Source: an uncultured Opitutia bacterium (lineage in GTDB: Bacteria; Verrucomicrobiota; Verrucomicrobiia; Opitutales; Opitutaceae). From it: a stretch of DNA of 64,000 nt. The notes under the pieces were generated by a model that was not told the DNA's origin, searched no databases, and saw nothing but the letters and a program-made list of their open reading frames with translations. The DNA lies in the NCBI GenBank assembly GCA_903855985.1, contig CAIOAO010000074.1, positions 1-64,000 on the forward strand, in the 5' to 3' direction. Within the stretch, counting starts at the first letter, position 1. Each line of letters begins with the position of its first letter. The position numbers and the translations under genes are program-made. Shown piece after piece: positions 42-60,365 of this stretch.

Positions 42-46
42 TTCTC

Positions 47-1978
47 ATGAAATCCTCCCGTGACCTCGCCGCCTCCTCCTGGACCCTGATCGGCTACGCG
101 CCTGATGCCTGGCGCGCGCTCGCCGGCGTGGACCTCGGGGCGCCCGACTTCTGCAGCGAAATCGCCCCGATGCCCGCCCGCATCCCGGCCTCCGTCCAGC
201 AGCTGCTGCTGGAGCAGAAGATGATCCCGGACTGGAACTACAACATGGACAGCCGCGCCGCGGAGTGGGTCGAGAACCGCATCTGGATCTTCACCACCCT
301 GATCCCGCGCGCCTGGCTCGAGGGCGGCAGCGTCCGCCGCCTCCGCTGCGCCGGTCTCGACCACGCCGGCTGGATCTGCCTGAACGGCCGCGAGGTCGCC
401 CGCTTCGCGAACGGCTTCGTCGAGCATGTCTTCGACCTCTCCCACGTCCCGGTCGCCGACGAGAACAAGCTTTCCATCGTCTTCGACCTGCCGCCCCGCT
501 GGCTTGGGCAGTTCAACTACACCTCCAAGATCAAGGACTGGAAGGTGCGCTTCAACTACACCTGGGACTGGCAGCCGCGCCTCGTGCAGATCGGCATCTG
601 GGACAAGGTCACGCTCGAGGTCTCCGACCGCCGCGAACTCTCCGGTGTGCGCTGTGCGCTCTCGCCGAAGGGTTTCACCCTCTTCGGCACGTCGCCGGAC
701 AAGGTTGAGGTCATCCTCCAGGACGGCGAGCGCACGATCGCCCGCGCCTCCGTCGAGGCCGCCGCGCTCGCCCGCGGGGCCACGTTCGACAACCTGCCCG
801 TCGAGTCCTGGTGGCCCAACGGCTCCGGCGCGCAGAAAACCTACCAACTCACCTGCCGCCTTGGCGGGCCGGCCGGCGGCGTGGCGGACGAATGGACGCG
901 CACCGTCGGTTTCAAGGATGTGACCTGGCGCGCCTGCGAGGGCGCGCCCAAGGCCGCCGACCCGTGGATCTGCGTCATCAACGGCCAGCCCACGTTCCTG
1001 CAGGGCGTCAACTGGACGCCCATCCGGCCCAACTACGCCGACGTCACCCGCGAGGACTACGAGCTGCGCATCCGCACCTACGCCAAGATGGGCGCCAACG
1101 TGTTTCGCGTCTGGGGCGGCGCCTTCCTTGAGCGCGAGATGTTCTACGACCTCTGCGACCAATACGGCATCCTCGTGTGGCAGGAATTTCCGTTCTCCTC
1201 GTCCGGCATCGACAACTGGCCGCCGGAGGACCCGAAGGTCATCGCCGAGACGCGCCCGATCGTGCGCGACTACGTCGCCCGCCGGCAGCACCACGCCTCG
1301 CTGCTCCTCTGGTGCGGCGGCAACGAGCTGCAGGGCGCCTTGGACGGCAACGCCGTCGGCTCAGGCATGCCCACGCCGCCCACACATCCGATGCTGGTGG
1401 CGATGAAGGAGGAGGTCGCCGCGATGGACCCCGGTCACCGCTTCCTCCACACCTCGCCCACCGGCCCGCGCGCGCAGGCGACGGAGAAGGAATACGGCCA
1501 GGAAGTGCACTGGGACATCCACGGCCCGTGGTGGCCGGTGCCGCAGAGCTACTGGGATGGAGACGACTCGCTCTTCCGCTCCGAGGTCGGCACGGGCGGC
1601 GCGAGCCCGCTGGACATCCTGGAGAAATACTTCGCCAAGGACGTGCTGATTCCCTTCGACGAGAGCAACCCGCACTGGCGTCGCTTCGGTTTCTGGATCC
1701 AGGGCGAGGCCTTCGCCAAGGACAACGGCCGGCCCGCCCGCAACCTCGCGGAGTTCGTCGCGTGGAGCCAGCAGCTGCAGGTCAAGTCGCTCGACATGGC
1801 CGCGCGCGGCATCAAGAAGCGCTTCCCGAAGATCGGCGGCATGATTGTCTGGATGGGCCACGACCCCTTCCCCTGCCCGATCAACACCGCCGTCCTCGAC
1901 TTTCACGGCCGCATCAAGCCCGGCGGCGAGGCGCTCAGCAAGATCTGGCACATGAAGCCGGAAGCGCTGCGCGGCTGA
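47..1978 (+). CDS. GH2 beta-mannosidase-like glycoside hydrolase
   Basis: This 643-residue protein has the glycoside hydrolase family 2 layout: an N-terminal jelly-roll sugar-binding domain (about 1-190), an immunoglobulin-like domain (about 190-290) and a TIM barrel. The acid/base Glu is in WCGGNELQG (about residue 427) and the likely nucleophile Glu in FRSEVGTGG (about 512). The overall pattern is closest to beta-mannosidases, which remove non-reducing beta-mannosyl residues. It is shorter than typical beta-mannosidases (about 800-850 residues) and lacks most C-terminal beta domains. No signal peptide is visible, so a cytoplasmic role on imported manno-oligosaccharides is inferred. The ATG at 47 follows a CCCCCTG tract with no Shine-Dalgarno motif. 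An exo-beta-glycosidase of other specificity in GH2 is the main alternative. Confidence 0.85.
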   Translation: MKSSRDLAASSWTLIGYAPDAWRALAGVDLGAPDFCSEIAPMPARIPASVQQLLLEQKMIPDWNYNMDSRAAEWVENRIWIFTTLIPRAWLEGGSVRRLRCAGLDHAGWICLNGREVARFANGFVEHVFDLSHVPVADENKLSIVFDLPPRWLGQFNYTSKIKDWKVRFNYTWDWQPRLVQIGIWDKVTLEVSDRRELSGVRCALSPKGFTLFGTSPDKVEVILQDGERTIARASVEAAALARGATFDNLPVESWWPNGSGAQKTYQLTCRLGGPAGGVADEWTRTVGFKDVTWRACEGAPKAADPWICVINGQPTFLQGVNWTPIRPNYADVTREDYELRIRTYAKMGANVFRVWGGAFLEREMFYDLCDQYGILVWQEFPFSSSGIDNWPPEDPKVIAETRPIVRDYVARRQHHASLLLWCGGNELQGALDGNAVGSGMPTPPTHPMLVAMKEEVAAMDPGHRFLHTSPTGPRAQATEKEYGQEVHWDIHGPWWPVPQSYWDGDDSLFRSEVGTGGASPLDILEKYFAKDVLIPFDESNPHWRRFGFWIQGEAFAKDNGRPARNLAEFVAWSQQLQVKSLDMAARGIKKRFPKIGGMIVWMGHDPFPCPINTAVLDFHGRIKPGGEALSKIWHMKPEALRG

Positions 1979-1999
1979 AGCGCAACGAGCAGAAAACAG

Positions 2000-2190
2000 T
2001 TTTAGCCGGAAGCCAGAAAACCAGGAACTCGGATGCCAATCCTTGTCGCGGAAACGCGGAGGTGCGGAAAAACCGGGGAAGGGAGGCAGGCCGGGACGTG
2101 ACCGTCCCGGCCAGCCTCCCCTCCGCGTTTTCGCGATCCAGATTGGATTCCATGCTTCTGCGCTCCTGGTTTCCTGGCTTCCGGCTAAAA
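2000..2190. repeat. 191-bp nested imperfect palindrome between convergent genes
   Basis: The outer arms 2000-2026 and 2164-2190 are 27 nt each and complementary with one mismatch (outer word TTTTAGCCGGAAGCCAG). The inner arms around 2081-2098 and 2101-2118 are complementary with one mismatch and enclose only two bases at the centre. The segments in between also pair partly (CGCGGAAACGCGGAGG against CCTCCGCGTTTTCGCG). It fills the space between GH2 (ends 1978) and the minus-strand permease (ends 2208), so a bidirectional terminator role is plausible. No transposase is present. Confidence 0.85.
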
Positions 2191-2207
2191 ACGACCTATC
2201 TCCACCT

Positions 2208-3071
2208 TCACCCTTTCACCCCCGACGACGCCACGCCCTCGACGAACCGCCGCTGGGCGAACGCGAACAGCAGGATCACCGGCGCCACCATCACCGTGGC
2301 GAGCGTCATCACGAGGTGCCACGGCACCTGACCGGCGTTGCCACCCGTGAGCTGCTCGGCGCGGGCGATGAAATAGAGCAGGCCGACGGGCAGCGTGTAA
2401 GTCTCCTCATTGTGCAGGTAGATCAGCGGATTGAAGAGGTCGTTCCAGCTCCATAGGAAGGTGAAGATCACCACGGTCAGCACGGCGGGCAGGCTCATCG
2501 GCACGACGAGCTTCCAGAGGATCGACCACTCCGAGGCCCCGTCCAACCGCGCCGCCTCGATGAAGCTCCGCGGGATCGTGCGGAAGAACTGCCGCAGCAG
2601 GAAAATCCCGAAGACGTTGCCGCCGAGCCACGCCGGCACCACGAGCGGCAGATAGGTGTTCACCCAGTGCAGCGCCGCATACGCCTGGAAGAGCGGGATC
2701 ACCGTCACCTGCGCCGGCAGCATCACCGTGCACAGCAGCGCGCCGAAGATCAGGTCCTTGTGGCGGACGTCGTAGTAGGCGAACGCATACGCCGCCGGGC
2801 AGCAGGTGAGCACCGTGCCGGCGATGACCATCACCGCGACAAAGGCGGAATTGAGGAAGAAGCGGTAAAACGCGAAGCCCTCCCACACCGTGCGGTAATT
2901 CTGCCACTGTGGCGCCGCCGGCAGCCACGGCGCGGGATTGCGCAGGATCTCGGGGAAGGTCTTCAGGCTCGTCAGCACCATCCACGCGAGCGGCAGCAGC
3001 ATGATCAGCGCGCCGAGCCCGAGCAGGACGTAGACGAGTACCGTGAGGGAGCGTGGCCGGGTGTGTTCCAT
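2208..3071 (-). CDS. carbohydrate ABC transporter permease, MalG type
   Basis: This 287-residue inner-membrane permease belongs to the MalG-like (CUT1) branch of binding-protein-dependent importers. About six membrane helices are visible, starting with a strongly hydrophobic segment near residues 12-32. The cytoplasmic EAA loop reads FIEAARLDGASEWSILWKLV (about 165-185), the site that docks the ATPase. It is the last gene of a three-gene minus-strand operon: binding protein, MalF-type permease, then this gene, with 6 bp to the previous stop. No ATPase is encoded with it, which is common in CUT1 systems that share an MsiK/UgpC-type ATPase from elsewhere. The substrate is probably an oligosaccharide; the neighbouring GH2 suggests a mannose-containing one, but that is inference. 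Confidence 0.92.
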   Translation of the reverse strand: MEHTRPRSLTVLVYVLLGLGALIMLLPLAWMVLTSLKTFPEILRNPAPWLPAAPQWQNYRTVWEGFAFYRFFLNSAFVAVMVIAGTVLTCCPAAYAFAYYDVRHKDLIFGALLCTVMLPAQVTVIPLFQAYAALHWVNTYLPLVVPAWLGGNVFGIFLLRQFFRTIPRSFIEAARLDGASEWSILWKLVVPMSLPAVLTVVIFTFLWSWNDLFNPLIYLHNEETYTLPVGLLYFIARAEQLTGGNAGQVPWHLVMTLATVMVAPVILLFAFAQRRFVEGVASSGVKG

Positions 3072-3077
3072 GGCGCG

Positions 3078-3971
3078 TCAGTCCCCGTAATGCACCCAGC
3101 GGCGGCCGAGGCGGAAGTTGAGCCAGGTGATGAGCAGGATCACCGCGAACAGCAGCCACGCCATCGCGCTGGCCAGGCCCATGTGGAAATACGCGAAGGC
3201 CTGCTGGTAGAGGTTCAGGCCGTAGAACAGCGTCGCGCGCGCCGGCCCGCCGGGCGTCAACCCCTGCGCCGCGCCAAACGCGTAGGCGAGGTCGAAGACC
3301 TTGAGCGCGCCGATCACGCCCATGACGAGGTTGAAGAAGATCACCGGCGAAATCTGCGGCAGCGTGATGTGCCGGAAGCGCGCCCACGCCCCCGCGCCAT
3401 CGATGTGCGCCGCCTCGTGGAGCTCCCGCGGCACGTTCTGCAGCCCGCCGAGCAGGATCACCATCGGGTAGCCGAAGCCCCAGAGGCTGATCAGGATCAC
3501 CACCGGCAACGCCCACACCGGGGAGCTGACCCACGCCGGGCCCGCCACGCCCGCCAGCGCGAGCAGCCGGTTCAACAGTCCGCCGTCCGATTGGAAGATG
3601 TAGATGAACACCGCCACGCTCGCCGCCTGCGGCAGGATCGACGGCAGGAAATACACCGCGCGCCACCAGCCCCGCCCGCCCACCGGCTGGTTGAGCAGCA
3701 GCGCGACCCCCAGCGCCGCCGCCAGCGAGAGCGGCAGCTGCACGGCGGTGAACACCAGCGTCACCTTCACCGACGCCCAGAACGCCGGGTCGGATTGCAG
3801 CAGGTAGGCGTAGTTGCGCAGCCCGATGAAGCGCGGGGCGCTCACGACGTCGTACTGGCAAAGGCTCAGCCAGAGGGAATCCAGCATCGGCCAGAGGCTG
3901 AAGAGGACGAATCCCGCCAGGGCGGGGCCCGCCAGCAGCCAGAACCAGAGTTGTTCGCCGCGGCGGTTCAT
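3078..3971 (-). CDS. carbohydrate ABC transporter permease, MalF type
   Basis: This 297-residue MalF/UgpA-like permease partners with the MalG-type protein downstream. The first helix is FWLLAGPALAGFVLFSLWPM, followed by a periplasmic loop and five further helices. The EAA motif ELHEAAHIDGAGAWARFRHI is near residues 185-205. I place the start at the ATG at 3971 because it overlaps the TGA of the upstream binding-protein gene by four bases (ATGA), a common sign of translational coupling, and the homology begins there. The open frame runs further upstream but only as a shadow inside the binding-protein gene. Confidence 0.92.
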   Translation of the reverse strand: MNRRGEQLWFWLLAGPALAGFVLFSLWPMLDSLWLSLCQYDVVSAPRFIGLRNYAYLLQSDPAFWASVKVTLVFTAVQLPLSLAAALGVALLLNQPVGGRGWWRAVYFLPSILPQAASVAVFIYIFQSDGGLLNRLLALAGVAGPAWVSSPVWALPVVILISLWGFGYPMVILLGGLQNVPRELHEAAHIDGAGAWARFRHITLPQISPVIFFNLVMGVIGALKVFDLAYAFGAAQGLTPGGPARATLFYGLNLYQQAFAYFHMGLASAMAWLLFAVILLITWLNFRLGRRWVHYGD

Positions 3972-16421: not shown

Positions 16422-16517
16422 TTTATCGCCAAAGCGCGAAAGGGCGGAAGCGCGTAAAAACCAATACCCGAGGACCGATTCCCTGCCTTTTCCGCCCTTT
16501 TGCGCTTTGGCGATAAA
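16422..16517. repeat. palindrome with 26-bp arms
   Basis: Arms 16422-16447 and 16492-16517 are complementary with one mismatch (word TTTATCGCCAAAGCGC). It lies four bases downstream of the CNNM gene stop. The 44-bp centre shows no further pairing that I can see. Confidence 0.85.
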
Positions 16518-18868: not shown

Positions 18869-18959
18869 TGTCATTCTGGGCACAGCGAAGAATCCACTTG
18901 GATAGTGCCGAAGCCTGCAGCGCACTCTCACTGGATTCTTCGCTACGCTCAGAATGACA
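18869..18959. repeat. palindrome with 28-bp arms
   Basis: Left arm 18869-18896 (TGTCATTCTGGGCACAGCGA plus eight more bases) and right arm 18932-18959 (starting TGGATTCTTCGCTACGCTCA) are complementary with three mismatches. From memory, very similar words occur as intergenic repeats in many unrelated bacterial genomes; I cannot check this here. Confidence 0.85.
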
Positions 18960-50466: not shown

Positions 50467-50524
50467 GGGATAAACTGCGGCGAAACCTACCCGCCCGCCC
50501 CGGAGCGTCGATTCGAAATTGTCC

Positions 50525-50590
50525 GTCGTGGGTCGGGGTTTATCCCCGACAGGTTTTTCCGGATGTCGGGGATAAACCCCGACCCACGAC
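50525..50590. repeat. perfect palindrome with 27-bp arms
   Basis: Arms 50525-50551 (starting GTCGTGGGTCGGGGTTTATC) and 50564-50590 are perfectly complementary around a 12-nt centre. Each arm also holds a small internal hairpin (TCGGGGTTTATCCCCGA). It belongs to the same GTCGGG..CCCGAC vocabulary as 20199-20252 and 53864-53882. Confidence 0.95.
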
Positions 50591-50615
50591 GAACGGCTGC
50601 CAGACTCCGGAAGTG

Positions 50616-52343: not shown

Positions 52344-52419
52344 TGGTGGGCCGACTGGGATTTGAACCCAGACTCAAAGGATTATGAGTCCTCTGCTTTA
52401 ACCATTAAGCTATCGGCCC
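52344..52419 (-). tRNA. tRNA with anticodon CAU (elongator Met or Ile2)
   Basis: The 76-nt gene folds into a full cloverleaf: acceptor GGGCCGA/TCGGCCC, D arm GCTTAATGGTTAAAGC, anticodon stem GAGGA/TCCTT with loop CTCATAA, T arm CTGGG/CCCAG with loop TTCAAAT, discriminator A, and an encoded CCA end. The anticodon CAU and a non-initiator acceptor (first pair intact) leave elongator Met or lysidine-modified Ile2. I cannot decide between them from this gene alone. Confidence 0.95.
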
Positions 52420-60226: not shown

Positions 60227-60238
60227 GGGAGGAAAGGC

Positions 60239-60365
60239 AGGAGCAGGGAGCAGGGGGTAAGGAGCAGGGAGCGGGGCGCAAGGCGCATGGAAAACCGGCC
60301 ATCGCTGATCTGGGCGAGGTTCAGTTTCCTGCTCCCTGCTCCCTGCTCCTTGCTCCCGGCTCCTG
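60239..60365. repeat. palindrome of GGAGCAGGG/CCCTGCTCC words
   Basis: The left side (60239-60276) is a run of AGGAGCAGGGAGCAGGG-type words and the right side (60327-60365) a run of their complements, each made of 7-8-nt units. It lies between two UroD-like genes and ends 13 bp before a start codon. Confidence 0.85.

Follow-up and report, generated by a model that had tools for sequence, protein, structure and literature searches.

What is a 191-bp palindrome doing between the stop codons of two convergent genes? The palindrome lies at positions 2000 to 2190 of a 64,000-nucleotide (nt) stretch of bacterial DNA (the window, by which we always mean the whole of that stretch), and an earlier note had read it as one very long hairpin available to the transcripts of both genes. 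Our answer, to which we give a probability of about 0.75, is that the palindrome is a composite of dispersed, recombining intergenic palindromic repeats, made of A arms, B arms, and a G+C-rich core. The composite identity is well supported; that the arms recombine and become homogenized is what we infer.

Anatomy of the palindrome

The layers of the palindrome are concentric, with repeat family A outside, family B within it, and the G+C-rich core innermost. The features of the locus are as follows.

47..1978, + strand: glycoside hydrolase family 2 (GH2) protein, 643 aa (open reading frame; Pfam PF22666, PF02836)
2000..2026, + strand: left outer arm, repeat family A, dialect TTTTAGCCGGAAGCCAGAAAACCAGGA; 27-bp arm of a family found elsewhere in the genome
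2027..2044, no strand: left A-B spacer (..GGATGCCAATCC..), which pairs imperfectly with the right spacer and is common to the G009 and G011 composites
2045..2075, + strand: left middle arm, repeat family B (TCGCGGAAACGCGGAGGTGCGGAA)
2070..2131, no strand: G+C-rich core stem (AGGGAGGC-A-GGCCGGGACG / CGTCCCGGCC-A-GCCTCCCCT, center TGAC), overlapping the inner ends of the B arms; a similar core occurs in G009 composites
2118..2137, − strand: right middle arm, repeat family B (CCTCCGCGTTTTCGCGA plus inner extension)
2138..2163, no strand: right B-A spacer (TCCAGATTGGATTCCATG..), with the same spacer in the G009 orthologue
2164..2190, − strand: right outer arm (family A repeat), which probably served as the crossover arm in a GH29 deletion or insertion
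2208..3071, − strand: ABC transporter permease, 287 aa (open reading frame; Pfam PF00528)

Most of the earlier description was reproduced. The outer arms (2000–2026 and 2164–2190) pair over 27 bp with one mismatch, the middle is partly paired (60-nt arms at 2008–2067 and 2115–2174, 70% complementary), and the whole lies between two stop codons, 21 nt past that of the GH2 gene (1976–1978) and 17 nt short of that of the permease gene (2208–2210). The inner stem, described as 18 bp around a 2-bp center, has instead a 4-nt center (TGAC) and one mismatch; the inner arms (2070–2098 and 2103–2131) are 86% complementary and 4 nt apart. The long layered palindrome of this convergent gap is real, and a cruciform or an RNA hairpin could form from it. 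The predicted RNA fold of 1990–2200 has an energy of −132.8 kcal/mol versus a shuffle mean of −73.1 (z = −12.95), and 0 of 200 dinucleotide shuffles folded as stably. The palindrome had no family match in Rfam, for which the only match in the window was a tRNA at 52347–52419.

The arms belong to dispersed repeat families

When the genome from which the window comes (2.94 Mb, 66.5% G+C) was searched with the palindrome, 80 pieces matched; beyond its own locus, the strong matches were copies of the outer arm (A) or the middle arm (B), often in inverted pairs. With up to 2 mismatches allowed, the core patterns of the arms were found 39 times (A) and 43 times (B); the reversed-pattern control gave 0. 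Across 12 genomes of the genus, A matches numbered 39 in this genome, 119 in G009, 47 in G011, and zero in six; B was distributed more broadly. On C74, a contig of the window's genome (288,210 bp, 251 called genes, 92% coding), there were 27 inverted repeats with a score of at least 15, versus 0, 3, and 0 in three Markov shuffles, and all 21 palindrome clusters lay outside genes. The sequence fetched from this genome held 19 paired A elements and 11 distinct paired B elements: multicopy intergenic inverted pairs, as in BIME- or REPIN-like repeats.

By our own reading, many arms consist of purine-rich units repeated in short tandem arrays, with a period of 7, 8, 9, or 10 nt. Period 7 is represented by GAAGGAA, GGAGCAG, and TTAGGAT, period 8 by A and B themselves, and period 9 by CACGAAAGA and CACGGATTA.

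Among 24 loop records of at least 20 nt from this genome, BLAST gave 6 hits, each between two records of one locus. Because these loops are unrelated, the arm-loop-arm units are not obviously self-copying as wholes, the G009 composites excepted. Copying of the whole unit with its loop was therefore rejected for this genome, yet the G009 composites do align. Likewise, the conserved interior expected of MITEs was not seen in this genome, the exception being the A(B(core)) composites of G009, which align end to end. No clean insertion junctions with target duplications were found at the empty sites checked in G003.

Two further structures are recorded here. The window has a perfect hairpin at 50524–50591, with 28-nt arms (CGTCGTGGGTCGGGGTTTATCCCCGACA) and a 12-nt loop, within a 369-nt gap. 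On C74, inverted 25-nt arms (GTGTAACCTATTGGGTTACACTGTC) lie 358 nt apart at 250202–250609, possibly as a small mobile element.

The locus in related genomes

Opitutae metagenome-assembled genomes carry the close relatives of the GH2 gene; several of these genomes we take to be lake derived, judging by their isolate names. The closest relative at this locus is G003 (locus L048), with DNA identities of 96% for the GH2 gene and 98% for the permease gene. The earlier note had named, as one half of what would speak against it, a relative that lacks the palindrome while the flanking genes still end normally, and G003 is such a relative: the two genes are separated by 12 to 13 nt, the palindrome is absent, and both genes end normally. 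The palindrome is also absent from G011 (L049), where the gap is 23 nt and both genes are intact.

In G009 (L050) the order is the GH2 gene, a first palindrome, a GH29 alpha-L-fucosidase gene, a second palindrome, and the permease gene. Window positions 46–2189 align to L050 4000–6107, and 2158–3999 align to L050 8081–9926. Only the right A arm, with a few adjoining bases ahead of it, is covered by both alignments, as would be expected had direct copies of that arm recombined. Such a crossover, in which the right A arms of both palindromes take part and about 2 kb is removed, would explain the absence of GH29; the reverse event is possible. Of 19 relative loci examined, 4 had a GH29 gene next to the GH2 gene; the part of the window's genome that was fetched showed none.

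A further palindrome family (TGGTCGTCGGTTTCC...) was observed inside A or core palindromes of G009 and G011 (L050 7986–8112, L188, L189, L192, and L207).

Is the palindrome a terminator or a selected hairpin?

The palindrome might be a bidirectional terminator, or an RNA hairpin protecting 3′ ends, common to the GH2 gene and the permease operon and selected for its pairing. Its position between convergent stops and its very stable fold are what such a structure would have. In addition, palindromes are mildly overrepresented in convergent gaps: of 45 (one more, at a contig edge, was left out), 11 were in convergent gaps versus 5.3 expected from gap bases (binomial P = 0.013), 26 versus 27.4 in codirectional gaps, and 8 versus 12.3 in divergent gaps. 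This mild excess makes a secondary 3′-end effect possible.

Nevertheless, we consider this explanation unlikely. Intrinsic terminators have a G+C-rich stem followed directly by a U run, and here the U tract is missing: the tail past the right arm is AAAAACGACC, the opposite strand likewise ends AAAA, and the stem ends 5′-TTTT...AAAA-3′ are therefore the reverse of those of an intrinsic terminator. There were 0 terminator-like matches in 1500–3500. G003 and G011 have both genes intact and no palindrome, and the eight palindromes in divergent gaps argue against a terminator as well. At locus L013, an A palindrome is accompanied by a U-tailed terminator that is separate from it. The terminator was dropped because of the polarity of the tail, the absence from relatives, and the copies in divergent gaps; and the shared 3′-end structure implied by the earlier note is not supported, given the normal gene ends in G003, the missing U tract, and the dispersal of the layers.

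The canonical U-tailed hairpin of L013, at about 780–820, is directly beside the A palindrome; ordinary terminators thus exist here.

The earlier note had also proposed to look for compensatory changes in the arms. We exchanged right arms among loci and compared pairing within loci with the mean of 500 such swaps. The two were alike (0.864 versus 0.855 for A and 0.772 versus 0.757 for B), and double-sided changes were not in excess in either arm set; the power of this comparison is lowered because two loci enter the B set of 13 twice, with their arms shifted, and because resemblance to a consensus was the basis for choosing the A set. In the outer stem of 8 composites there were 0 double-sided changes, and over all pairs in the composites there was a double-sided change in 12 of 53. 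In the arm sets and the outer stem there was thus no excess of the compensatory changes that keep pairing, the mark of a conserved structured RNA. Since arm matching within loci was not in excess, hairpin-templated copying of one arm from the other at each locus (quasi-palindrome correction) is also unsupported. Any effect of the palindrome on the GH2 and permease mRNAs would be incidental.

Palindromes within palindromes

The composite reading is that the layers are separate repeats, and nesting is found in more than one order. The window copy is A(B(core)); the opposite order, B(A), occurs at L022, and family C, the third, encloses A at two loci, L029 and L019 (near 27.6 kb in the latter). 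C(D) is found at C74 81511 in both this genome and G009, and another C(D) follows the GH2 gene in L055. The A(B(core)) composite recurs in the window, in its G009 orthologue, and at further loci in G009 and G011. When 8 composites were aligned, the mean column identity was 68% and the A-B spacers were partly common; the core differed in two of them (G009 C24:369k and C13:169k). Among inverted repeats of C74 only 3 nested pairs and 1 adjacent pair were counted at a looser threshold, at which shuffles gave 35 to 41 inverted repeats, so that this count is weak alone.

Comparisons between strains are more direct. At L017/L138 the B arms are alike in this genome and G003, and in G003 they enclose an entire A palindrome. 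C74 162960/L158 has nearly matching outer arms in the two genomes, and another palindrome sits in the G003 loop. At site 18 the loop in G009 holds a palindrome of family F. Inner palindromes come and go inside unchanged outer arms between strains, and these three comparisons support insertion into loops as the likely route.

Turnover and arm dialects among close strains

We compared 33 palindrome loci, chosen because they had A or B arms or a C74 palindrome in the window's genome, with G003. All 33 were located by their flanks, and 28 aligned on both sides (the others were L013, L020, L026, L027, and L036). The strongest stem in the G003 gap scored at least 13 in 16 of the 28, 9 to 12 in 5, and below 9 in 7. 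Classified by eye, 6 of the 16 high-scoring gaps held the same family (two with another B subfamily) and 10 held a different family.

Three other palindromes of the window also differ from G003. At 16422–16517 both arms differ together from the G003 C76 orthologue (GCGAAAGGGCGGAA versus GCGGAGGAGCGGAA), with flanks that are 96% to 98% identical. A palindrome with GGAGCAG heptamer arms is present at 60238–60365, where the G003 gap is empty. The palindrome at 18869–18959 (TGTCATTCTGGGCACAGCGAAGAATCCA) is absent in G003, and a similar sequence occurs in G003 palindromes L136 and L141.

The arms of family A also come in dialects, mostly AAGGGG in the window's genome and mostly AGCCGG in G009. AGGGG-type and GCCGG-type arms numbered 25 versus 4 in the former and 12 versus 103 in the latter (Fisher P = 5e-15, with copies that are not independent). 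In its own genome the window copy belongs to the small GCCGG minority. At 11 of 14 A sites compared, at least one A arm was present in G009, G011, or both; G009 had GCCGG at 9 of these 11 and GGGG at two (sites 15 and 17). At site 20 the loop is clearly common to all three genomes, and the dialect block differs on both arms between this genome and G009; G011 carries the block of G009 on its right arm, and its left arm is disrupted. Sites 8 and 18 give the same picture less completely, and at site 13 the two G011 arms are of different dialects. Site 20 thus gives full evidence of arm switching around a shared loop, and sites 8 and 18 give partial evidence. A dialect switched on both arms around a common loop suggests that A arms are homogenized within a lineage. 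At the other dialect sites, a new insertion may have taken the place of the palindrome.

Lineage-wide dialects and coordinated change of both arms would also be expected if a protein read the arm, that is, if the arm were a DNA-binding or topological site (a BIME-like gyrase or nucleoid site, or an uptake-like motif) whose dialect tracked a trans-acting protein. However, many unrelated families of one design occur in a single genome and replace each other at the same gaps, and we regard a protein site as quite improbable.

No sign of a mobilizing enzyme

Movement as a REP- or TIR-type repeat by a RAYT or TIRYT (Y1 tyrosine) transposase is very improbable. The repeats are intergenic, palindromic, and multicopy, the genome encodes one PF01797 protein (Y1 transposase), and O. 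terrae, a verrucomicrobium, is reportedly rich in GTAG repeats (PMC3733652). However, REPs are defined there by a GTAG or CGTC tag at the foot of a 20- to 40-bp palindrome (PMC3733652), and the ends here are TTTT(A)/(T)AAAA, with no such tag; G011, with its 47 A matches, lacks any PF01797 match; and at none of the 19 PF01797 loci of the genus did arms of A, B, C, or D stand on both sides (2 had one distant arm), for which reason RAYT mobilization was rejected. No mobilizing enzyme was found.

Proposed explanation

Repeats that are scattered between genes, in this Opitutae bacterium from fresh water as in related genomes, and are rapidly gained, lost, and recombined look like mobile or recombining DNA, not like a conserved switch or terminator. 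In the composite-repeat reading that we prefer, palindromes would accumulate by insertion into the loops of existing palindromes, and their arms would then serve as short homologies for recombination. Such recombination would homogenize the arms within a lineage and would delete or join DNA. Here, if two palindromes stood as they do in G009, a crossover between their right A arms would account for the presence of GH29 between the GH2 and permease genes in G009 and its absence there in the window.

At rather less than even odds, these repeats are an undescribed Opitutae superclass of palindromes with arms of tandem 7- to 10-nt purine-rich units, insertion into loops, exchange of families at gaps between close strains, and a lineage-wide joint switch of dialect through homogenization by recombination without a RAYT, driving gene loss (the GH29 deletion).

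What appeared to be a gene-specific hairpin becomes a case of palindromic repeat dynamics. In close strain pairs, loop insertion, replacement, and arm switching become datable, and the locus itself is one at which a gene for sugar degradation was probably lost or gained through recombination of repeats. In genomes of this kind, a long hairpin between genes should not be taken for a terminator.

Comparison with known systems

A literature search of titles and abstract openings, with partial coverage, gave no description of these Opitutae families, and the portions of the RepRanger paper compared (PMC12306157) have no mention of Verrucomicrobia or Opitutus.

Nested palindromes as such are already known. 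In organelle DNA of Volvox carteri, short intergenic palindromes are inserted within one another to give larger composites, by a mechanism that the authors left open (PMC2670323). The likeness is in the nesting of short intergenic palindromes into composite repeats; the differences are that our DNA is bacterial, not organellar, and that its loops are unique and mostly 14 to 50 nt, versus usually 3 to 5 nt in Volvox mitochondria (PMC2670323). Arm dialects do not appear in the parts of that paper compared.

REP-like repeats are likewise known from many bacteria, and like REPs and BIMEs our elements are intergenic, multicopy, strain-variable inverted pairs around loops (PMC3733652). Unlike REPs, BIMEs, and REPINs, they have no GTAG/CGTC tag, longer arms (27 to 30 nt), no link to a RAYT, and concentric nesting of different families. 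REPINs, like the elements here, are laid out as inverted pairs separated by loops.

The TIR repeats of TIRYT transposases are inverted and unrelated to REPs, some being partly self-complementary and some joined with other stem-loops (PMC3733652). Our repeats resemble them in all of these respects, but the TIR motif GGGGWSAS does not fit the A arm (GGGGAAGC) and was not seen in B, and no flanked transposase was found. IS elements that target REPs also insert into an existing palindrome, in one consensus at the axis of palindromy (PMC1525189); there the insert is a full IS, and here it is another short palindrome.

Finally, the palindromic microsatellite repeats of Fusarium mitochondria are optional between close species and linked to indels (PMC7218506). 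As simple-repeat palindromes with that behavior they are like ours, but they are mononucleotide A/T runs in mitochondrial DNA, whereas the units here are purine-rich, 7 to 10 nt long, and belong to a bacterium of 66.5% G+C.
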